Below, in pieces: positions 12,809-26,219 of a stretch of 64,000 nt of DNA (the first letter of the stretch is position 1; each line of letters opens with the position of its first letter). Source of the DNA: Mucilaginibacter corticis (lineage in GTDB: Bacteria; Bacteroidota; Bacteroidia; Sphingobacteriales; Sphingobacteriaceae); assembly GCF_007558865.1 (NCBI RefSeq), contig NZ_VLPK01000001.1, positions 1,798,001-1,862,000 of the forward strand. The letters run 5' to 3'. The position numbers were made by a program, and so were the translations under genes. Under the pieces are notes generated by a model, which was not told the DNA's origin, made no database searches, and saw only the letters and a program-made list of their open reading frames with translations.

Positions 12809-13474
12809 TTAAAACTTATAAGCAATCCGGGCATTCATAGTAATACTCGGGGCAGGCCCGTTAAAAGGTTTATTAAATTCGAAGTTTAAATTGAGCTCAC
12901 GCGGCTCTATCAAAATAGCATTAGGATCAACCAAGCCTGATTGCGTGACCTTCCTTAATTCGCCTCCGAAACCGGCATAAAAGTCAAATACAAAACGCCT
13001 GGCAAGCAATTGCACGCCATACTTAAGATTTCCGGCAATAAATCTTTTGTGAATGTCAACATTGTCGTTGTACGCAGGAGAACTCGCAGATGTATCTGCT
13101 GCAAATACCATATTGGCTTTATAGTCTGCTTTCAAATAGACCATATTGGCAGCTATATACATCCTGAAGGAAGAACGCTTAGTTGGTAAGAAATATTTCT
13201 GTTCCAGATCCAGTCGCCAGCCTTTGTAATCGGTAAAATCGCTCTTAGGTAACAACGCATTTGACATACGCGCTACAGCGACAAGAGTTGCAAAGTTATT
13301 ATGGTAGCTTCGCTGGTAGCCGAGTTCAAATCCCGGGTTTATAGGGTCAACAATACGCAATGGTGTAACAATAATCTGATTCGGGTAACTGTCTGTTTTA
13401 ACTTGTGCAAATGTGACGAGGCCACTCAGCATTATGATAGTAAGAAAAATGAACTTGATGGGGTTAGGTTGCAT
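12809..13474 (-). CDS. Probable outer-membrane beta-barrel protein, unknown
   Basis: 221 residues with signal peptide ending VTFAQ. The mature part alternates aromatic and polar residues and ends in a terminal aromatic (IAYKF), as expected of an outer-membrane barrel. Segments NPGFELGYQRSYHNNFATL and FRMYIAANMVYLKADYK look like beta hairpins. It resembles the DUF3575-like/opacity-type small barrels common in Bacteroidota, but I cannot name the family. It stands alone; no operon partner is visible. Confidence 0.7.
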   Translation of the reverse strand: MQPNPIKFIFLTIIMLSGLVTFAQVKTDSYPNQIIVTPLRIVDPINPGFELGYQRSYHNNFATLVAVARMSNALLPKSDFTDYKGWRLDLEQKYFLPTKRSSFRMYIAANMVYLKADYKANMVFAADTSASSPAYNDNVDIHKRFIAGNLKYGVQLLARRFVFDFYAGFGGELRKVTQSGLVDPNAILIEPRELNLNFEFNKPFNGPAPSITMNARIAYKF

Positions 13475-13582
13475 GGTATATTATAGTCATCTAAGATAAT
13501 AATAATCGATAAATCATAGTGGTGATGGTGGCCCTGTTAATTATAAAAAGACTTGTCCTGACCGAGATACAATGACGTGAAA

Positions 13583-13607
13583 AAGCCCTGTCTAAAAGAC
13601 AAGGCTT
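13583..13607 (-). terminator. Hairpin terminator
   Basis: Stem AAGCC-TGTCT / AGACA-GGCTT with one C-A mismatch and loop AAA. On the minus strand it is followed by a short T run. It lies 80 bp past the haloperoxidase gene, with the tRNA-Pro remnant between, and resembles the hairpin placed directly after the intact tRNA-Pro gene. Confidence 0.6.
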
Positions 13608-13618
13608 ATATAACTGCT

Positions 13619-13670
13619 GGGATGGAAGTATTCGAGCGGACGACCCCCGGCAACCCTTGCTGGCGCGATA
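13619..13670 (-). pseudogene. Remnant of a tRNA-Pro gene
   Basis: Read on the minus strand this stretch matches the intact tRNA-Pro(GGG) gene of this window at 42 of 52 positions without gaps. The match covers the D-loop end, anticodon arm, variable loop, T arm and 3' acceptor strand. The T stem no longer pairs, one anticodon-stem pair is lost and the 5' acceptor strand is absent, so it cannot be a working tRNA. A terminator-like hairpin follows, as at the intact locus. It could be a decayed second tRNA-Pro gene or the scar of an integrated element. Confidence 0.75.
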
Positions 13671-13687
13671 CTCCCCTGGTTTTTTAC

Positions 13688-15019
13688 TTATTCAGCAGGT
13701 TTAAATTTATGGTCCTTCAGCTTTGCAACAATAAAATTGCCAACATCGGCACCTAATGTATACCCGTTATTTACAGAATCCATAAAGTGGATCCCGCCCC
13801 AGTACCTGCTGATCGCGGCTTCCTGTGATGCCTGTTTGAAAGAGGTAAAACTTCTTTCTTTTACGCCGTATTTTTCTTCTACAGAATCTGTGTATTTATA
13901 GTTGTCGCCAAAATAATAAGTCAGTATGGTTGCTGCTGTTGATGATATATAACTGTGACCGCTCAAATATTCGGGGAATGGCGGTGTCTGCAAAAATGGT
14001 TTCCACAACGGATCGATCAATTTGCGAATTGCCGATTCGGGGCGGATCCTGTTGCTGCGGTATTTTTCGTCCCAGCAGCCAATAAAGCTATCTGTAAGGC
14101 CGAAAGTTAACATGCTGTAAACCTCCATAGTTTTAGAGAAGCTTAATTTTGATTGCTGGCAGGCAATACCTGCTATGCCCATCCAATGCGCCCCGGGAGA
14201 GATCTTTTTCAGGCCCAGCATCAAATGGCCTTTAGTATCCACCGCAAAGGGGTTACAATCCCAAAAGGCGGCTATTTTCTTGTGGTCCTCGGTAAGATTT
14301 TTACCTCCGTCTACATAATTGCTATCCAGCATTTTGCAGAAGAGCGAGTTCTTGTCTTTTGAATACGGAACGGGTCGTACAGGTATAAATTGCGAACTGG
14401 TATCTATAATAAATGTCCGTACAGTTCTGAAATAAGGCTCGACCGGTGCAAAAAAGGCTGGCGGGGTGGGGTACCAGTAGCCCTCGCCAACCAGTGGGGT
14501 ATAGCGCGGATAATTGCTGATACGGTTATAACGGTCTTTTTTTGCATAAGCCAGAACTTGTTTGGCAATTTGTACCGCGTATGATTGTGAATGTGCGATG
14601 ACATCATCAGAGAAACCGATCTTGCGGCACGAGTCAAGCAACTTTGCTTCAAAATCTGCAAATTTCTTGCCAGATGGCTGCATTTTTTTTGCAGTCTCTG
14701 CCATAGCCAGCAATGCACTTAACTGGTAAGCGTATTCGCCCGAGTCCAAGGGTTTTTTAATGTCGGGGAATTTATTGAGGAGGCCTTTTAGTGGAACAAC
14801 CTTTTTGTCATTCAGCGCCAATACGGTGTAACCTGATATGCAAGCATATGAATAGAACCTTGCCGCCAATGGCGGATTGGTAACATCATGCATCATATAG
14901 GCCGTCATCTGGTCCAGCACCTTTTGAATGTCTTTGTTAGTCAGCTGGGGATAGGTTTCTTTCTTTTTGCACCCTAACAGAAAGATCAGCAGTGCGCAGA
15001 AAATAGCTATGCGTTTCAT
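13688..15019 (-). CDS. Vanadium-dependent haloperoxidase-like / PAP2 lipoprotein
   Basis: 443 residues with lipobox signal IAIFCALLIFLLGCKKK. The vanadate/phosphate-binding residues of the PAP2-haloperoxidase fold are visible: RIRPESAIRKLIDPLWKPF, then SGHS at 353-356 inside PFPEYLSGHSYISS, and R405...H411 in ISRYWGGIHFMDS. This set serves either halide peroxidation (vanadate) or phosphatase activity. It lies 42 bp downstream of the giant VCBS/UnbV gene on the same strand, a pairing I have seen as recurrent in Bacteroidota. It is probably anchored in the envelope. Confidence 0.87.
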   Translation of the reverse strand: MKRIAIFCALLIFLLGCKKKETYPQLTNKDIQKVLDQMTAYMMHDVTNPPLAARFYSYACISGYTVLALNDKKVVPLKGLLNKFPDIKKPLDSGEYAYQLSALLAMAETAKKMQPSGKKFADFEAKLLDSCRKIGFSDDVIAHSQSYAVQIAKQVLAYAKKDRYNRISNYPRYTPLVGEGYWYPTPPAFFAPVEPYFRTVRTFIIDTSSQFIPVRPVPYSKDKNSLFCKMLDSNYVDGGKNLTEDHKKIAAFWDCNPFAVDTKGHLMLGLKKISPGAHWMGIAGIACQQSKLSFSKTMEVYSMLTFGLTDSFIGCWDEKYRSNRIRPESAIRKLIDPLWKPFLQTPPFPEYLSGHSYISSTAATILTYYFGDNYKYTDSVEEKYGVKERSFTSFKQASQEAAISRYWGGIHFMDSVNNGYTLGADVGNFIVAKLKDHKFKPAE

Positions 15020-15061: not shown

Positions 15062-18000
15062 TTATTTACCGAACTGAAATGCCCGCATTTTTTGCTGATT
15101 GATACCTATAAGCAAGGTGTTGTTTAAAGTGATCACGCTCCGCACATCGCCTTTCAATCTTAAATTGCTTTGCATTTCGGGCACGTAGCTAAAGCCGCCT
15201 TTACCATCGCCTTTAAGTAGCACGCCATGGTTGGCATCATACTTACCAAAACGGATCCGCGACTGATAGATGTTGCCACAAAGTAAAAGGTCCTTGTGCC
15301 CATCACCATCATAATCAAGCGATGTAATAGTATATACTGGTGCATACTGCGCCTGTATTGGCAAAGGCATTTCCTTATATTTACCGCCGGCGGTGCCTTC
15401 AAAATAAGCGGTTTTTAAATAATTGGCCTTCAGTGTTTTTGCACCCTTCATTTCGTCCTCGGTAAATACATCTTTCAGGGTTGCATCCGCGTAGCTTTTA
15501 TAATCAGGGAAACGTGCGCGCATAATGCTCATCTGGTCCAGCAGTTCATCGCGGGTTAAATAAGGATAGCTTTTGCCCTGGATATAGAAGCACAGTATAG
15601 GGTCAATAGCGCCATTGTCGTCAAAATCTTTGTAGCATAGTTCGGCAGGTTCCGCATCGCTTACCTTGCATTGGCTGTTAAGGCCCAGGTTGCCTACAAC
15701 AAGATCTGGTTTGCCGTCGCCATTAAGGTCTTCAACTTTCAGGCTGTTCCACCAACCGTTATATTCTTTATCAAAATATTTATCGGTTTGGTTGGCCAGT
15801 TTACCGCCCTGGTTTATAAATACGCTTATCGGCATCCAATCGCCCACCAATACCAGGTCGGCTTTCTTATCACCGTTCATATCAAGTATCGCCGCGTCTG
15901 TAACCATCCCGATATGTTCAAGCTCAGGCGCTATGGTTTTTATCTGGTCGGTAAAATGGCCTTTACCATCATTGATCAATATAAAACTCTTTGGCGCTTC
16001 AGGATACCTGGATCCGGCATTACGGCCACCCACAAAAAGATCTGGTTTGCCATCGCCGTTGATATCGCCCACCCTTACACAGCTTTTGCTTACCAGCATG
16101 GCCGGTAAAGTACCCTGCGCTTTAACCAGTTTACCTTTACCATCGTTTAGGTATAACCTGTCCTGAAATAACGGATCATTATCCTTGAAACTGGCATAGC
16201 CGCCACTTACTACATAAAGGTCTAAGTACCCGTCGCCATTGGCATCAAAAAATACGGCATCAGCATCCTGGCTGTCCTTATCGGCCAAAAAAGGTTGCTC
16301 GTCTTTAATAAACTTGCCGCCCTTTTGCTGGATGTACAAAGCCCCCGGCGTATGTACATCACCACCCACAAACACATCTTCCAGCCCGTCACCGTTAACA
16401 TCGCCTTTTGCCATACACGGACCCACGAAAGACAGCGCGTTCACCAATAATGGCTGGCGTTTGTAGTCATTGATCTGGTTGGGTACCTGTTCTGCCGCCA
16501 CAGGCGATGGGATCTCTTTGAACACAGGTGCTACCGGGGCAGGTTTACGGTAAATATCTTTAGCATCCTTTTCATAAAAGGTAAGCAGGCGGTCTGCGGC
16601 TACTTTGGTTACAACCTGTTGTTTGCCGCTTAACCAAACAACGCGGATAGAATCTGCTTCTTTATTCTTTCCTAAGCCAAAATGCAACTGTGCTGATACG
16701 GTTGATAAATAACCTTTGGCAGGCATTTGCTCTATAACCTGTAATTTGCCTTTGGTGTATACGGTGACTTTGGTGCCAAGTCCATCGGTGTTTTTACCGG
16801 CACCTTTCAGGTTTATCCTGAGGTAATGTTCGCTCTTGTCGCTTTTATTTTCATATACAAAAGCAGATCGGTTAATGTTGTTTACCACCAGGTCAAGGTC
16901 GCCGTCATTGTCCAGATCTGCGTAGGCTGCACCATTACTGTTTGATGGCAAGGTCATGCCCCATGCCGCGCTTTTGTCGGTAAAGGTTAAGTCGCCGTTA
17001 TTTTTAAATATATAGTTCTTTACGTCAGACGATGGCATATTGCTAAGCATGTCAAGCACGTGCTTAGGTTCAATCTCGCCATTAATGCTTTTAAAATAAT
17101 TCTCGTTGTATTTAAGCACATCCATATTGGTAAAATCACGCATATAACCATTGGTAACATACAGATCCTTCATGCCATCATTATCATAGTCGGCAAATAA
17201 GGGCGCCCAGCTCCAGTCTGTATTTGATATGCCGGCCAATTGCCCTATCTCGCTAAAGGTGCCGTTGCCGTTATTCATATGCAGCATATTGCGCATATAC
17301 TGGTAATAAAAGCCATTGCGCAGGTTGATATTGAACGACTCGTAATTATCCATACCGGCCAGTAATTTCTGGCGCTTATTATCTTCAGGAAGCATATCCA
17401 GAGTAAATATGTCAGGCAGGCCATCGTTGTTAATGTCGGTAATGCTGTTACCCATCGAGAACAGGGTGATATGATCCAGGGTGGTGGTCATCTTATCGGT
17501 AAAAGTGCCGTCGCCATTGTTAATGTACATAGCATCAGGCACAGAATAGTCATTAGATAAATAAATATCCGGGAGGCCGTCGCCGTTGATATCCGCTATG
17601 GCAGCAGCGAGGCCGTAAGACAATGTCGACATATTAAGCCCGGCCTTTTTAGTAACATCAGTAAAATGCCCGTTGTCATTCCTGTATAACTTAGTACATA
17701 CCTGCGGGTCATCCTGCTTTTTTAATTGCTGGATATTCACGTCATCAAGTTCATGCATGATCTTGGTATTCTCATTCACCAGCAATAGGTCAAGGTCGCC
17801 GTCTTTATCATAATCAAAGAAATAGGCCTGTGTGCTGTAAGCTGTATCTGCAAGGCCATAACTTTCCGCCTCGTCTTTAAAAACGGGTATCCCATGCGCA
17901 TCCAGCCCCTGGTTAATAAATAGCTGATTCTTGCGGTTGGCACCCGGACCTCTGCCTGAATAGCATTGGAAAATGTCTGGCTTACCATCACCGTTAACGT

Positions 18001-18379
18001 CCACAATATTTACACCTGTTTTCCAGCCATTTTCGCGGCCGGCAACACCGGCTTCGGCGGTAATGTCGGTAAACTTCATATTACCGCGATTCAGGTATAG
18101 TTTATTATCGCTCATGTTGCCCGAGAAATAAATATCGTCCAGGCCATCGTTGTTCAGATCGCCTATGGCAACGCCGCCGCCGTTATAAAAAGCCTGATAA
18201 TTCAGGATGTTTTTTTCAAAGTTCTCGGTGATGACATTATTGAAGAGGATGCCTGTTTTGGATGAGTCTAATAAAGTAAATAGCTGTTTTTCGGGCACCG
18301 CGTTTGATTGATCTTTGTTAGATCGACCGCATGCGGATAGTAAAACAATACAAATTGCACCTAAGTAAAATTTTGTCAT
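15062..18379 (-). CDS. VCBS/FG-GAP repeat lipoprotein with ASPIC/UnbV domain
   Basis: 1105 residues; the lipobox is LLSACGRS. The N-terminal half contains many FG-GAP/VCBS repeats with calcium-loop signatures such as DLNNDGLDDIYFSG, DVNGDGKPDIFQC and DINGDGLPDIYLS, predicting a beta-propeller. An ASPIC/UnbV domain follows near residues 520-590 (LRINLKGAGKNTDGLGTKV, then KGYLSTVSAQLHFGLG). A second set of repeats fills the C-terminal half. It belongs to the CRTAC1-like extracellular protein family. The gene is directly upstream of the haloperoxidase-like gene, so the two products may act together at the surface; that is inference. Confidence 0.92.
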   Translation of the reverse strand: MTKFYLGAICIVLLSACGRSNKDQSNAVPEKQLFTLLDSSKTGILFNNVITENFEKNILNYQAFYNGGGVAIGDLNNDGLDDIYFSGNMSDNKLYLNRGNMKFTDITAEAGVAGRENGWKTGVNIVDVNGDGKPDIFQCYSGRGPGANRKNQLFINQGLDAHGIPVFKDEAESYGLADTAYSTQAYFFDYDKDGDLDLLLVNENTKIMHELDDVNIQQLKKQDDPQVCTKLYRNDNGHFTDVTKKAGLNMSTLSYGLAAAIADINGDGLPDIYLSNDYSVPDAMYINNGDGTFTDKMTTTLDHITLFSMGNSITDINNDGLPDIFTLDMLPEDNKRQKLLAGMDNYESFNINLRNGFYYQYMRNMLHMNNGNGTFSEIGQLAGISNTDWSWAPLFADYDNDGMKDLYVTNGYMRDFTNMDVLKYNENYFKSINGEIEPKHVLDMLSNMPSSDVKNYIFKNNGDLTFTDKSAAWGMTLPSNSNGAAYADLDNDGDLDLVVNNINRSAFVYENKSDKSEHYLRINLKGAGKNTDGLGTKVTVYTKGKLQVIEQMPAKGYLSTVSAQLHFGLGKNKEADSIRVVWLSGKQQVVTKVAADRLLTFYEKDAKDIYRKPAPVAPVFKEIPSPVAAEQVPNQINDYKRQPLLVNALSFVGPCMAKGDVNGDGLEDVFVGGDVHTPGALYIQQKGGKFIKDEQPFLADKDSQDADAVFFDANGDGYLDLYVVSGGYASFKDNDPLFQDRLYLNDGKGKLVKAQGTLPAMLVSKSCVRVGDINGDGKPDLFVGGRNAGSRYPEAPKSFILINDGKGHFTDQIKTIAPELEHIGMVTDAAILDMNGDKKADLVLVGDWMPISVFINQGGKLANQTDKYFDKEYNGWWNSLKVEDLNGDGKPDLVVGNLGLNSQCKVSDAEPAELCYKDFDDNGAIDPILCFYIQGKSYPYLTRDELLDQMSIMRARFPDYKSYADATLKDVFTEDEMKGAKTLKANYLKTAYFEGTAGGKYKEMPLPIQAQYAPVYTITSLDYDGDGHKDLLLCGNIYQSRIRFGKYDANHGVLLKGDGKGGFSYVPEMQSNLRLKGDVRSVITLNNTLLIGINQQKMRAFQFGK

Positions 18380-18895: not shown

Positions 18896-19987
18896 ATGAA
18901 AAAACTTTTACTTACTTCATTCTTATTTGCCAGTTTATTATCGGCAAAAACTTTTGCCCAAGGCTGTGTGGCCATACGCAGCACAGGCGGTGTTTGTTCA
19001 ATGCTTGAACACCCCGACAGTACTAACGAAAATGGCGCCTGGATCTTTAATTCAAACAATCGCTATTTTCGCTCATACAAACACTTTATCGGCCGGCAGG
19101 AGCAAAAACAGCGTATTGCCGCAGGTACCAATGTTATCAACCACTCTTACACACAGGATATGGCATTGACCCGCGTATTTAACAGCCGTTGGTCAGCCGC
19201 CATTGATATACCGGTTCTTGCCAATACCAGGTCGTCGCTTTATGAGCATGGGGGTAGCAAACGTGCGCTGACCTCTTCTTTCGGCGTGGGCGATATCAGG
19301 GTGTCAACTTATGCATGGCTGCTTGACCCGGCTAAAGTAAAAAACTTTAACGTGCAGCTTGGCCTGGGTATTAAATTTGCGACAGGCGCCTACAACTACC
19401 AGGATTATTTTAGAAATACCGGCCCGAACGGATCAAGCTTGTTAGGCCCTGTTGACCAGTCAATACAGTTAGGTGACGGCGGGACAGGCTTAACTTTAGA
19501 GGTAAATACTTTTTACCACTTATCATCAGCTTTCAACCTGTATGGCAATTTCTACTATTTATCTAATCCACGCCAGGTTAATGGTACATCAACGGCTCGT
19601 GGTGGTGTAGCAAGCGCTGCTAATATTGCCAATACCAGCGATGTAATGAGCGTACCTGACCAGTATATGGCCCGCGCAGGTGCAAGTGTGAAAGTAAACA
19701 AATTTACTTTTTCTGCCGGTGTAAGAGACGAGTGCTTACCGGTACATGACCTTATCGGCGGCAGTGACGGCTTCAGAAGACCGGGCTACATCATATCGGC
19801 CGAGCCGGGAGTAACTTACGAGTTTAAAGGTGTAACTATATACGCTTTGGCACCATGGGCCTTGATACGTGACCGTACACAAAGTGTACCTGATATTTTG
19901 AAAACACAACAAACAGGTACTTACACCCACGGCGATGCCGCCTTTGCTGATTATGTGATCAATGTGGGCATTGGTTTTAAATTATAA
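18896..19987 (+). CDS. Outer-membrane barrel protein, transporter-like, unknown
   Basis: 363 residues; signal peptide MKKLLLTSFLFASLLSAKTFAQ. The mature N-terminus has an unusual pair of cysteines, QGCVAIRSTGGVCSM, followed by a long beta-rich body with alternating aromatic residues and a terminal INVGIGFKL strand, as in outer-membrane barrels of the MetA-pathway/transporter type. Segments such as FNVQLGLGIKFATGAYNYQDY and YALAPWALIRDRTQSVPD fit that view. The function is unknown. It faces the tRNA-Pro gene across a strong bidirectional hairpin. Confidence 0.72.
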   Translation: MKKLLLTSFLFASLLSAKTFAQGCVAIRSTGGVCSMLEHPDSTNENGAWIFNSNNRYFRSYKHFIGRQEQKQRIAAGTNVINHSYTQDMALTRVFNSRWSAAIDIPVLANTRSSLYEHGGSKRALTSSFGVGDIRVSTYAWLLDPAKVKNFNVQLGLGIKFATGAYNYQDYFRNTGPNGSSLLGPVDQSIQLGDGGTGLTLEVNTFYHLSSAFNLYGNFYYLSNPRQVNGTSTARGGVASAANIANTSDVMSVPDQYMARAGASVKVNKFTFSAGVRDECLPVHDLIGGSDGFRRPGYIISAEPGVTYEFKGVTIYALAPWALIRDRTQSVPDILKTQQTGTYTHGDAAFADYVINVGIGFKL

Positions 19988-20007
19988 GCGCTTAAAATAA
20001 AGAGTTT

Positions 20008-20054
20008 GAAATAACAAAAGCCTTTAGGTTATACCTAAAGGCTTTTGTTATTTC
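20008..20054. terminator. Bidirectional terminator, perfect 22-bp stem
   Basis: The two 22-nt arms at 20008-20029 and 20033-20054 are perfectly complementary, with loop TAT. The stem core is AAAAGCCTTTAGGT, with A/T runs on both sides, so it should terminate the outer-membrane protein gene on the plus strand and tRNA-Pro on the minus strand. Confidence 0.88.
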
Positions 20055-20056
20055 AG

Positions 20057-20130
20057 TCGGGATGGCGGGATTCGAACCCACGACCTCCAGCACCCCATGC
20101 TGGCGCGATACCGGGCTACGCTACATCCCG
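20057..20130 (-). tRNA. tRNA-Pro(GGG)
   Basis: 74 nt, full cloverleaf. Acceptor CGGGATG/CATCCCG with discriminator A; anticodon arm CCAGC-ATGGGGT-GCTGG gives anticodon GGG; T arm GTGGG-TTCGAAT-CCCGC. CCA is not encoded. Confidence 0.97.
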
Positions 20131-20192: not shown

Positions 20193-21506
20193 TCAGGGAT
20201 GCGGTTCTTTGGTGATCGCGTCGCTTAAATAACCGCCGAAAAGGCTTAACTGTAACTCGGCAGGCTGGTCGCCATTAATGGTAAAATCATTGATGGACGT
20301 CCCGTTCAACGCACCTGTGGTGTTGTCGATGGTCCATTTTTCTTCCAGCACCTTGCGGCCGGCTTCGCCCAGGTTGTTATCGTCAAAATAACTAATGGTC
20401 ATGGTGTTGGCCTGCAGCGTCATTATCAGGTAGCCATTATACCCAAGCGGGATGTTGCCGTTAAGCACCTGCCGCCTCCGCGAATCGTACAATACCAGGT
20501 TACGGTTCTCGCCGCTGGCAGGGTTATTATTGCGGGGCCGTTTTACGCCGCCGTCGGTGGTGTAAAGTTCAACCGGCATACCGCTGTTGCCAATACAACG
20601 CGCAAACAGGTTGCCGCCGTTGCTCATTTTATTTGGCCCGTAAACAGAAAAATAATGCTCATGCCCCCACAGCCAGATAATGTCACGCCCGGCAGGCAAC
20701 AGCGAAGCAATGTATGCAGCAGGTTTAGGGAACTCCGATTCGAACGCCGAAAAGCATTGGTGATGCGACAGGATAATGATACCCCGGTTATCATCGCTTA
20801 GCTTTACCGTGTTTTGCAGCCATGTTTTCTGTTCGGGTGTAAGGTCAAGGTCGGTATTTGGGGTAAGGCCTAATAATCCCGTTAAAGAGTCGTAGCCTGT
20901 ATCTAAACCTATAATGCGCCAGTATTCGTTCTCTAAAGTAAAAAAGCTGGCTTGTTGTACCTGTGTTGGTGCTTCCTGATCAGGCGCGTAGGCACCCATA
21001 TAGGGCAGCAGTTGGGTGAAATAGCTTTTGCCGCTCGAGTACATTTCATGATTGCCTATCATGGCGAAGCTGCCGAGTGTTCCGTAGGGCCAGGTACCGC
21101 CCTGGTCGGTATTAAAATTTTCGGCTATCTCCTTGTCATTTCCCACATAATAGGTATCACCAAGGTGGATGCTGTAATCCTGGATACCGGCTTGTTTGGC
21201 CACCAGTTGCGACTCGGCAGTGTACGATGCCCAATCGCTCAATATCGCTATGCTGACAGGTTCGGTCGACGGTTTGGCTATCTTAAAGATCCCCGTATTG
21301 TCGCCGCTGTAAACAGGGTAAGGCTTATACTTTGCCTGGCAAACGCTGCCTACATTTTTTAAAAACCAGGTCAGTTTGTTCTCTTCAACCAGGCCATCCA
21401 TATTATACAACGGGACAGGCTTTGCAACGCTGTCATTAATAGCACTCAACTGGTTTGATAACGAGGACCGGTTAAGGCCTACCAAGTCACTTTGATTTCT
21501 TAGCAT
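20193..21506 (-). CDS. Calcineurin-like metallophosphoesterase
   Basis: 437 residues, no signal peptide. The metal-site motifs are in order: ILSDWAS, HLGDTYYVG, MIGNHEMYSSG, LSHHQCFSAF and LWGHEHYFSVYG, as in purple-acid-phosphatase-like enzymes. The first motif has Trp where DxH is usual, so one ligand may come from elsewhere. The C-terminal 130 residues (YLIMTLQANTMTISYFDDNN) form a beta-rich tail. It lies 33 bp downstream of the patatin gene on the same strand; together they could break a phospholipid and then a phosphate ester, but the substrate is unknown. Confidence 0.85.
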   Translation of the reverse strand: MLRNQSDLVGLNRSSLSNQLSAINDSVAKPVPLYNMDGLVEENKLTWFLKNVGSVCQAKYKPYPVYSGDNTGIFKIAKPSTEPVSIAILSDWASYTAESQLVAKQAGIQDYSIHLGDTYYVGNDKEIAENFNTDQGGTWPYGTLGSFAMIGNHEMYSSGKSYFTQLLPYMGAYAPDQEAPTQVQQASFFTLENEYWRIIGLDTGYDSLTGLLGLTPNTDLDLTPEQKTWLQNTVKLSDDNRGIIILSHHQCFSAFESEFPKPAAYIASLLPAGRDIIWLWGHEHYFSVYGPNKMSNGGNLFARCIGNSGMPVELYTTDGGVKRPRNNNPASGENRNLVLYDSRRRQVLNGNIPLGYNGYLIMTLQANTMTISYFDDNNLGEAGRKVLEEKWTIDNTTGALNGTSINDFTINGDQPAELQLSLFGGYLSDAITKEPHP

Positions 21507-21539
21507 CTGATCACGATTAAGTGGTTTATGTCAAGTTTC

Positions 21540-22562
21540 TTACTCAAATACCACAGGGTCCTCGCCTTGCAGCAATACAGTTATGATGTCATCCATTTCG
21601 GCACAGTTTTGCGCGGTATCTGTGCCTACCTGCAGCAGAGCCTGGATATTTTGATCAGAGGCATCGTCCATCTGCGGATTGGCTGTACCCAGGCTTGATG
21701 GTTGGATCCGTACATAATTTGCCTGGTGGTTTTGTGCCGAAAACATTTTGATCATGTGGTAATTGGTCACCTCGGCCGCGCCCGACATCATGATATCGAT
21801 AACCGGTTTTACCCAGCCTATCTCGCCCCAGCCTTTTGCTTTTTCATAACTATATGGCGCATCCTGGCTGCCTGTGCCGATAGATACCACATACATATCC
21901 TTGGCAGTAGGGCTACCTACCGAGTTCCTGACCTCAGAATAAGCGCAAAGCGATGGGTTATTGGCAAAAACACCGCCATCTACACAGGCATAGCTTTGAC
22001 CGCTGATAGAAGTGATCAGTTCTGTTTCAAAATAAGTTGGCGCAGCGGATGTTGAACGTGCCACCTGGCGCACATAAAAATCGGCCACATCACCTTTTAG
22101 CTTTTGATCATGCTGGGCAAAAAACTTGGTTTCGCGGTTTTGAATATCGTAGCTGGTAATGATGCAGGGTTTTAGCAACTGGCTCAATTTAATATCACCA
22201 AAATATTCCTGGAGGCAGCTCTCAATACCTGCTGCAGCATATTTTTCTTCCACCACACCACCAATTGATCTGAGTTTATGCCAGATAGTAGAATTAAAGA
22301 TTTTGTCGCCATTTTTTACATAAAGGTCTACCGCTTCCTTGGCCGAGAACCTGGCCTTCTTTGGATCGTCAGCCGATGGGCATAATAAGATACAGGTTAA
22401 AATACCACCAGTACTGGTGCCTGCAAAAAAATCGAAGTATTCTGCTATCCGCGCATCCGGATTGCCTGTTTTTTCCTGCAGTTTGGCCTCTAAAGCTACC
22501 AGTATTTGTCCCGGAATGATGCCGCGGATACCGCCGCCATCTATCGATAAGATTTTTTTCAT
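21540..22562 (-). CDS. Patatin-like phospholipase
   Basis: 340 residues, no signal peptide, so probably cytoplasmic or at the inner membrane face. All patatin landmarks are visible: oxyanion glycines DGGGIRGIIPG at 8-18, nucleophile S50 in GTSTGG, and catalytic D195 in VDGGVFANNPS. The pattern of a full-length bacterial patatin is kept, so it should be an active Ser-Asp lipid acyl hydrolase. It is first in a two-gene unit with the metallophosphoesterase and diverges from the DUF5995 gene (161 bp). No cyclase, TIR or other antiphage partner is adjacent, so a CBASS-like role is not supported. Confidence 0.92.
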   Translation of the reverse strand: MKKILSIDGGGIRGIIPGQILVALEAKLQEKTGNPDARIAEYFDFFAGTSTGGILTCILLCPSADDPKKARFSAKEAVDLYVKNGDKIFNSTIWHKLRSIGGVVEEKYAAAGIESCLQEYFGDIKLSQLLKPCIITSYDIQNRETKFFAQHDQKLKGDVADFYVRQVARSTSAAPTYFETELITSISGQSYACVDGGVFANNPSLCAYSEVRNSVGSPTAKDMYVVSIGTGSQDAPYSYEKAKGWGEIGWVKPVIDIMMSGAAEVTNYHMIKMFSAQNHQANYVRIQPSSLGTANPQMDDASDQNIQALLQVGTDTAQNCAEMDDIITVLLQGEDPVVFE

Positions 22563-22723
22563 TTTTATTATTGGGTGATTGGTTTGAATTGGTTAAAGCG
22601 GGTTCACGTTGCCCCCGGCAGAAAGAACGTATTGCTTATGGGGTTGATAAAACCCGCCATAAAGTATTGTGTCTCAATTCAAAGTTAAATAGAATATATA
22701 TCTTTAGCTATTAAAAAATCATA

Positions 22724-23512
22724 ATGGCCGCAACTACAATTGATGATATTATTACGTCGCTTCAAAATATAATTGCGCAGTGCACTGCCAATAACAGCAG
22801 GTTAGGTTACTTCGCTACGTTATATTTAAAAGTTACCCAAAGCGTAAAGGACGGCATAGCTGCGGGGCAGTTTCAGGATGGCCCGAGGATGGAGAAACTG
22901 GATGTTGTTTTTGCCAGCAGATATCTGACCGCTTATGAGCAATATCAAAATCATCAGCAGCCTACACAGTCGTGGGCTATAGCTTTTGAGCAGGCCGAGA
23001 AATCGTCCATATTGGTTTTGCAGCACCTGCTGTTGGGAATGAATGCCCATATTAATCTTGACCTGGGTATAGCAGCGGTGGAGGTTTGCGGCGATGATCC
23101 GCTGACATCTTTACAGCAGGACTTTGATTCTATCAATACCATCATATCCGCGCTAACCAATGAAGTGTTGTTTGAGCTTGGGCAGGTTTCGCCGTTATTA
23201 TCGCTGCTTGGGTTGCATGCATCTGATAATAATTCGGCGCTTATCCAGTTCAGCATAGGCAATGCCCGCGATGGTGCCTGGTGTTTTGCCGAAGGGCTTA
23301 TTGCAAAAAAAGGAACTGAATACGATCAATATATTGCCGACAGGGATACTACGATCACCAAATTAGCCAAAAGCCTGATACACGGTACAGGGTTTTTTAT
23401 GAACGCCACACTTTGGCTGATCCATATTTTTGAAAAGAGAAACCCCGCAGCAGTTATAAAAGTGCTTAATGAGTATCAGAAAAAGAAGATCGTAATAGCT
23501 AAAGCTGATTAG
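22724..23512 (+). CDS. DUF5995 family protein
   Basis: 262 residues, no signal peptide, mainly helical. The block HLLLGMNAHINLDLGIAAVE, followed by DPLTSLQQDFDSIN, is what I recognise as the core of DUF5995; the conserved N-H-I-N and later DGAWCFAEGL could form a polar or metal site. The function of the family is unknown. It is divergent from the patatin-phosphoesterase pair and could share its regulatory region. Its stop overlaps the stop of a small convergent gene. Confidence 0.78.
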   Translation: MAATTIDDIITSLQNIIAQCTANNSRLGYFATLYLKVTQSVKDGIAAGQFQDGPRMEKLDVVFASRYLTAYEQYQNHQQPTQSWAIAFEQAEKSSILVLQHLLLGMNAHINLDLGIAAVEVCGDDPLTSLQQDFDSINTIISALTNEVLFELGQVSPLLSLLGLHASDNNSALIQFSIGNARDGAWCFAEGLIAKKGTEYDQYIADRDTTITKLAKSLIHGTGFFMNATLWLIHIFEKRNPAAVIKVLNEYQKKKIVIAKAD

Positions 23513-26135: not shown

Positions 26136-26209
<74 letters not shown>

Positions 26210-26219
26210 CCTGATAATC

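Follow-up and report, generated by a model that had tools for sequence, protein, structure and literature searches.

Fragments of tRNA genes are a general result of integration, as set out for Islander (PMC4383910) and in the account of partial tRNAs by van der Gulik et al. 2023 (PMC9897764). In the part of the Islander description that concerns geometry, an island has an intact tRNA gene and a 3' fragment of it downstream, in the same orientation and within 2-200 kb; an integrase lies within or overlaps the candidate island, and the repeat starts from a recognised crossover subsite (anticodon, T-loop or junction). In the sections of van der Gulik et al. (PMC9897764) that deal with partial tRNAs, partial non-functional copies have a complete gene nearby and are explained by integration or by CRISPR capture. 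For Mucilaginibacter, a paper on genomic islands (PMC6316836) reports integrases, and its main text does not use the word tRNA. In open-licence papers we found neither a tRNA-Pro hotspot nor the tRNA-Pro-like satellites that we report below described in this genus.

The locus we analyse is a decayed partial copy of tRNA-Pro(GGG) in Mucilaginibacter corticis, within a stretch of 64,000 nucleotides that we call the window. As in an Islander island, the partial copy lies on the 3' side of an intact gene, 6.4 kb away, and both are on the minus strand. By ARAGORN and by Rfam, the window contains two tRNA genes, tRNA-Pro(GGG) and tRNA-Ala(GGC). The features are as follows.

~13579-13607, minus strand: terminator-like hairpin with a T-run, just 3' of the remnant, from sequence reading and fold (a pattern scan did not list it)
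13619-13671, minus strand: tRNA-Pro(GGG) remnant, decayed 3' part (tRNA positions 20-72)
13688-15019, minus strand: PAP2-superfamily protein, 443 aa (Pfam)
15062-18379, minus strand: FG-GAP / ASPIC-UnbV protein, 1105 aa (Pfam)
18896-19987, plus strand: 363-aa protein without a Pfam match
20007-20055, no strand assigned: long inverted repeat, near-perfect, adjoining the 3' end of the intact tRNA-Pro, from sequence
20056-20130, minus strand: intact tRNA-Pro(GGG) gene (ARAGORN, Rfam), identical to the gene of the relative G019
26136-26211, plus strand: tRNA-Ala(GGC), divergent from tRNA-Pro (ARAGORN, Rfam)

The inverted repeat at 20007-20055 is possibly a bidirectional terminator that also serves the convergent gene 18896-19987. 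When the terminator hairpins are compared with each other, their similarity is at background level. Between the two tRNA genes, the stretch 20193-23512 holds metallophosphatase, patatin and DUF5995 genes, and only 8 of the 148 other genomes encode a homolog of the metallophosphatase; in G019 the tRNA-Pro and tRNA-Ala pair is only ~164 bp apart. A T-arm-like stretch at 13318-13350 on the plus strand, within the gene 12809-13474, is probably a chance resemblance.

By local alignment, 13671-13619 on the minus strand is identical to positions 20-72 of the intact tRNA-Pro(GGG) at 43/53 positions, without gaps. A sequence-only reading of this DNA had seen here the 3' part of a tRNA-Pro gene, on the same strand and followed by a terminator-like hairpin; its ungapped count of 42/52 (13670-13619 on the minus strand against tRNA positions 21-72) is reproduced, and the hairpin is seen in the fold. 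T-loop-like letters recur by chance in genomes, but the next best 52-mers on both strands of the window reach 37/52 in tRNA-Ala and no more than 29/52 anywhere else. A BLAST search of the whole genome with the intact gene returns the gene itself, one gene on another contig at 88% (tRNA-Pro(TGG) in relatives) and the remnant at E 1e-7, all remaining matches having E >= 0.05. The window scores and the whole-genome E value rule out a chance match for all practical purposes.

All ten mismatches of the remnant fall at position 34 or later, in the anticodon loop and stem, the T-stem and the T-loop; the T stem is destroyed and the GGG anticodon arm is largely retained. Positions 20-31 are perfect (12/12), positions 32-72, the supposed att core by comparison with the genus elements described below, match at only 31/41, and the DNA beside the remnant that would correspond to tRNA positions 1-19 matches at 4/19, which is chance level. 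We rule out a functional tRNA or a structured RNA: the remnant is not called by ARAGORN, nor by Rfam at E <= 10, it does not form the cloverleaf of acceptor, D, anticodon and T stems of a functional tRNA gene, and, taken by itself, it folds less well than its shuffles do on average. Homology to one gene, a lost end, lost stems and the missing tRNA call together are what characterises a truncated tRNA pseudogene. Comparison with the tRNA-Pro(GGG) alleles at the loci of 29 relatives does not single out a donor: several alleles fit the remnant about equally well (for most, 42-44 matches over 53-54 columns).

Three genes lie between the two copies: the PAP2, FG-GAP and 363-aa genes, which the sequence-only reading had called haloperoxidase, VCBS and outer membrane, respectively, and had taken for possible cargo. 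The PheS-nearest relatives are G137, G118, G104, G141, G123, G133, G162, G019 and G140 (93-96%), and G086 is also at 93% besides these nine. The PAP2 and FG-GAP genes are adjacent on the same strand, a pair that is conserved in relatives. Among named organisms, the closest matches to the PAP2 protein belong to Mucilaginibacter. The best PAP2 matches are in G137, G019, G104, G140 and G118 (76-77%), where the FG-GAP gene adjoins PAP2 and both are located elsewhere in the genome. Judging by these nearest homologs, which come from the PheS-nearest clade, the PAP2/FG-GAP operon is clade-native and not foreign. The proposal of foreign cargo is therefore unsupported: set against the species relationship given by PheS, the two genes follow the clade and give no indication of a foreign origin. 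The 363-aa protein has matches in 95/149 genomes, its own included; the best are in G133 (83%, in the clade), then G080 (75%, outside it and not among the PheS-nearest), then G118, G104 and G140, and there is no tRNA within the ~4-kb loci of its 11 best relatives. Ten genus integrases used as queries find no integrase trace in the 64-kb window (best E 0.76), and base composition has no clear step in the window.

The remnant coincides with a break in synteny. G019, G104, G140 and G118 resemble one another over the 400 bp that follow the PAP2 gene (alignment scores 486-753), and the corresponding flank in the window scores 16-22 with each of the eight loci in the comparison, which indicates that the operon moved relative to its neighbours. 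The flank of G137, the PheS-nearest relative, scores 17-21 and is yet another one, so the break could have arisen in several ways. The PAP2 stop codon is ~17 nt from the remnant, and the join in the window lies within about that distance of the remnant; DNA similarity to relatives stops at the coding ends, and an identity of ~73% cannot place the join more exactly. None of 82 relatives' loci around tRNA-Pro(GGG) shares gene order with the window, and 16/82 have scattered homologs of window proteins. With no syntenic locus among these 82, neither the block at the same place nor a functional tRNA-Pro at the site of the remnant is seen in relatives. The only near relative keeping tRNA-Pro(GGG) is G019, which shares no genes with the window and whose flanks are at background. 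In the other eight of the nine PheS-nearest relatives (G137, G118, G104, G141, G123, G133, G162 and G140) the gene was not found; several of these are incomplete assemblies, G123 being 99% complete, and the loss of tRNA-Pro(GGG) in most of the nearest relatives is an apparent one.

We searched 149 genomes of Mucilaginibacter, a genus of soil bacteria, with a pattern of the 3' part of tRNA-Pro(GGG), allowing at most 3 mismatches. The pattern is present in 121 genomes and more than once in 24, and a reversed control pattern has zero matches. In 18 of the 24 the copies are on one contig, and the second copy is downstream and on the same strand in 18/18, at distances of 1.5-147 kb; in G017 a third copy lies 508 kb off, on that same strand too. 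For the remaining six, with copies on different contigs, orientation is not definable. Seventeen of the 18 second copies are repeats that begin at positions 27-32, in the anticodon arm, and run to 75. The 18th, in G067, is a complete second tRNA-Pro(GGG) gene 2.2 kb downstream (74/75). The DNA 5' of the distal repeats is alike among many elements, and 17 such element arms match 3-9/12 over positions 20-31 (mean 5.9). An integrase or a piece of one is found in 17/82 loci around tRNA-Pro(GGG), a count made with queries drawn from some of these genomes and with downstream DNA of varying length; 16 of the matches are 180-413 bp downstream of the tRNA, the one in G060 is upstream, and 6/17 span at most 115 residues. 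Other elements have the integrase at the distal end, and Pfam confirms a tyrosine integrase for one tRNA-proximal and one distal case. Islets with an eroded integrase occur in G032, G064, G096 and G098. The G032 islet (C11, L036) takes up the 3.8 kb that separate tRNA-Pro(GGG) from a perfect 3' repeat, and next to the tRNA stands an integrase stump of 87 residues; the genes of the islet are presumably an arsenic-type set, going by names assigned from the sequences. Decayed scars are found in G095 (89%) and G098 (82%). In G080 (C1:1252355, 1399531) and G090 (C1:3794242, 3932911), where tRNA-Pro and distal repeat are 139-147 kb apart, the two differ in their T-arm allele, which is what an element that brings a new 3' end to the tRNA would be expected to leave. 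Viral contigs have no exact att-core match; one match otherwise, L330, is without a tRNA and in unrelated-looking DNA. That the 3' end of tRNA-Pro(GGG) serves as an integration hotspot in Mucilaginibacter is well supported by these genome comparisons.

The remnant may accordingly be compared with a decayed attachment-site scar (attR), as the sequence-only reading had suggested. An island would have entered the 3' end of tRNA-Pro(GGG) and renewed it, leaving the displaced original at the far edge; the integrase would later have been lost, and the block would be what remains. We take this for a serious candidate that is nonetheless probably not the right one. The side, the strand and the part of the tRNA in the remnant agree with an attachment scar, the geometry is that of every same-contig second 3' copy in the genus, integrases or stumps do stand near the tRNA, and both eroded-integrase islets and decayed scars exist. 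By eye, several distal repeats are also followed by a hairpin-like stretch, like the remnant. The hotspot geometry thus makes the suggestion plausible, but the usual left boundary and the integrase are missing: the match runs from position 20 and not from 27-32, it is perfect outside the att core and imperfect inside it, and the window has no integrase trace. By eye, no element arm follows the intact gene on its 3' side or precedes the remnant on its 5' side, and a clade-native operon also speaks against an island.

Relatives also hold partial copies of a different kind. Downstream pieces that start at positions 19-21 occur in G012 (+144, +244), G087 (+123), G142 (+122, +1919), G157 (~+122) and G105 (+842), and 5' pieces occur upstream of tRNA-Pro(GGG) in G021, G030, G105 and G161. 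Most of them have another hairpin, of TCCC..GGGA type, in place of the anticodon arm. The tRNA-Pro-like satellite loci are these.

G012: L060, L325
G087: L258
G142: L308
G105: L303
G157: L326
G160: L281
G021: L052, L328
G030: L035
G161: L327

The 3' forms are downstream and the 5' forms upstream, mostly at most 0.3 kb from the tRNA, and several downstream satellites are followed by a terminator-like stretch. An alignment of 12 satellite hairpins has 93% of its cells paired and shows changes on both sides in two pairs, the fold having been read from the same sequences that the pairing test uses. In shuffles, two such pairs appear in 135/500, and 0/500 reach six cells or the covariation score of the hairpins. 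A motif scan for the hairpin form gives six matches in 5/149 genomes. Five stand next to tRNA-Pro(GGG), and the one in G096 has no tRNA in its 3-kb locus. Rfam finds only the intact tRNAs in the satellite loci. In G142 and G160, the DNA after the satellite resembles the element arm found after tRNA-Pro in other genomes.

The remnant could be a member of this satellite class with a replaced anticodon arm, displaced later by an insertion, but we find that unlikely. The downstream satellites start where the remnant starts and several share its terminator-like continuation, and the G160 satellite, ~9.4 kb from the tRNA and beyond an integrase island, illustrates how a copy next to the tRNA comes to lie far from it. 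The remnant, however, keeps most of the GGG anticodon arm and is without the TCCC/GGGA hairpin, the class profile scores it at only E 2.9, far below tRNA-Pro itself, and it folds no better than shuffles. A bolder form of the idea, which we think more improbable still, would make the remnant a worn member of an undescribed class of tRNA-Pro(GGG) satellites that carry hairpins for the anticodon arm and act as secondary attachment sites. If it were true, satellites could draw integrases off the real gene, or let islands accumulate beside tRNA-Pro(GGG).

Our preferred explanation, in which our confidence is no better than even, is that a rearrangement at the hotspot truncated a second tRNA-Pro(GGG) copy, of which the remnant is the decayed rest. 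A second copy, or a 3' piece with its terminator, would have arisen beside the intact gene; a rearrangement would have separated the two copies by clade-native genes and severed the second near position 19/20; and with the intact gene supplying the tRNA, the stump would have been free to decay. The remnant would have no present function, except possibly that of lending its terminator hairpin to the PAP2/FG-GAP operon. A truncated copy is favoured by a similarity far above chance, by the abrupt start at position 20 followed by the perfect stretch, by the second copies in relatives, including the pieces that start at 19-21, and by the synteny break at the remnant next to a clade-native operon in a window without integrase trace. 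Against it, nearly all second 3' pieces in the genus that are >2 kb from the tRNA are integrase attachment repeats, divergence of the flanks hides the event itself, and most partial copies in relatives have the changed anticodon arm that is absent from the remnant. The perfect match over positions 20-31 could be luck, at 0.81 to the 12th power or ~0.08. We prefer a truncated copy to a decayed attR mainly for the left boundary at position 20, and by a small margin, since attR has prior frequency on its side. Under either of these two readings, the remnant is a dead genomic scar at the hotspot.

The fragment alone is an ordinary genomic scar, and its value is that of a pointer. It led to the well-supported hotspot at tRNA-Pro(GGG), with its integrases, eroded-integrase islets and swapped 3'-end alleles, and also to the apparent loss of tRNA-Pro(GGG) in most of the nearest relatives and to the odd hairpin-armed satellites.

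Unlike the islands in the Islander description cited above (PMC4383910), the window has no integrase between the copies, where the genes are PAP2, FG-GAP and one without a Pfam match; the remnant is strongly decayed and begins at position 20, which is not an anticodon-, T-loop- or junction-type site. The example given by van der Gulik et al. (PMC9897764) has 44-bp repeats with 1 bp different, whereas the window copy is 81% identical and without an element. The hairpin-armed satellites resemble the remnant in that their downstream forms start at 19-21, and differ from it in the hairpin that stands for the anticodon arm and in lying mostly so close to the tRNA. The tRNA-Pro(GGG) integrase islands of Mucilaginibacter have features of their own, a repeat core from 27-32 to 75, recurring arms and often an integrase or a stump, and they share with the remnant the same tRNA gene, the same side and the same strand.
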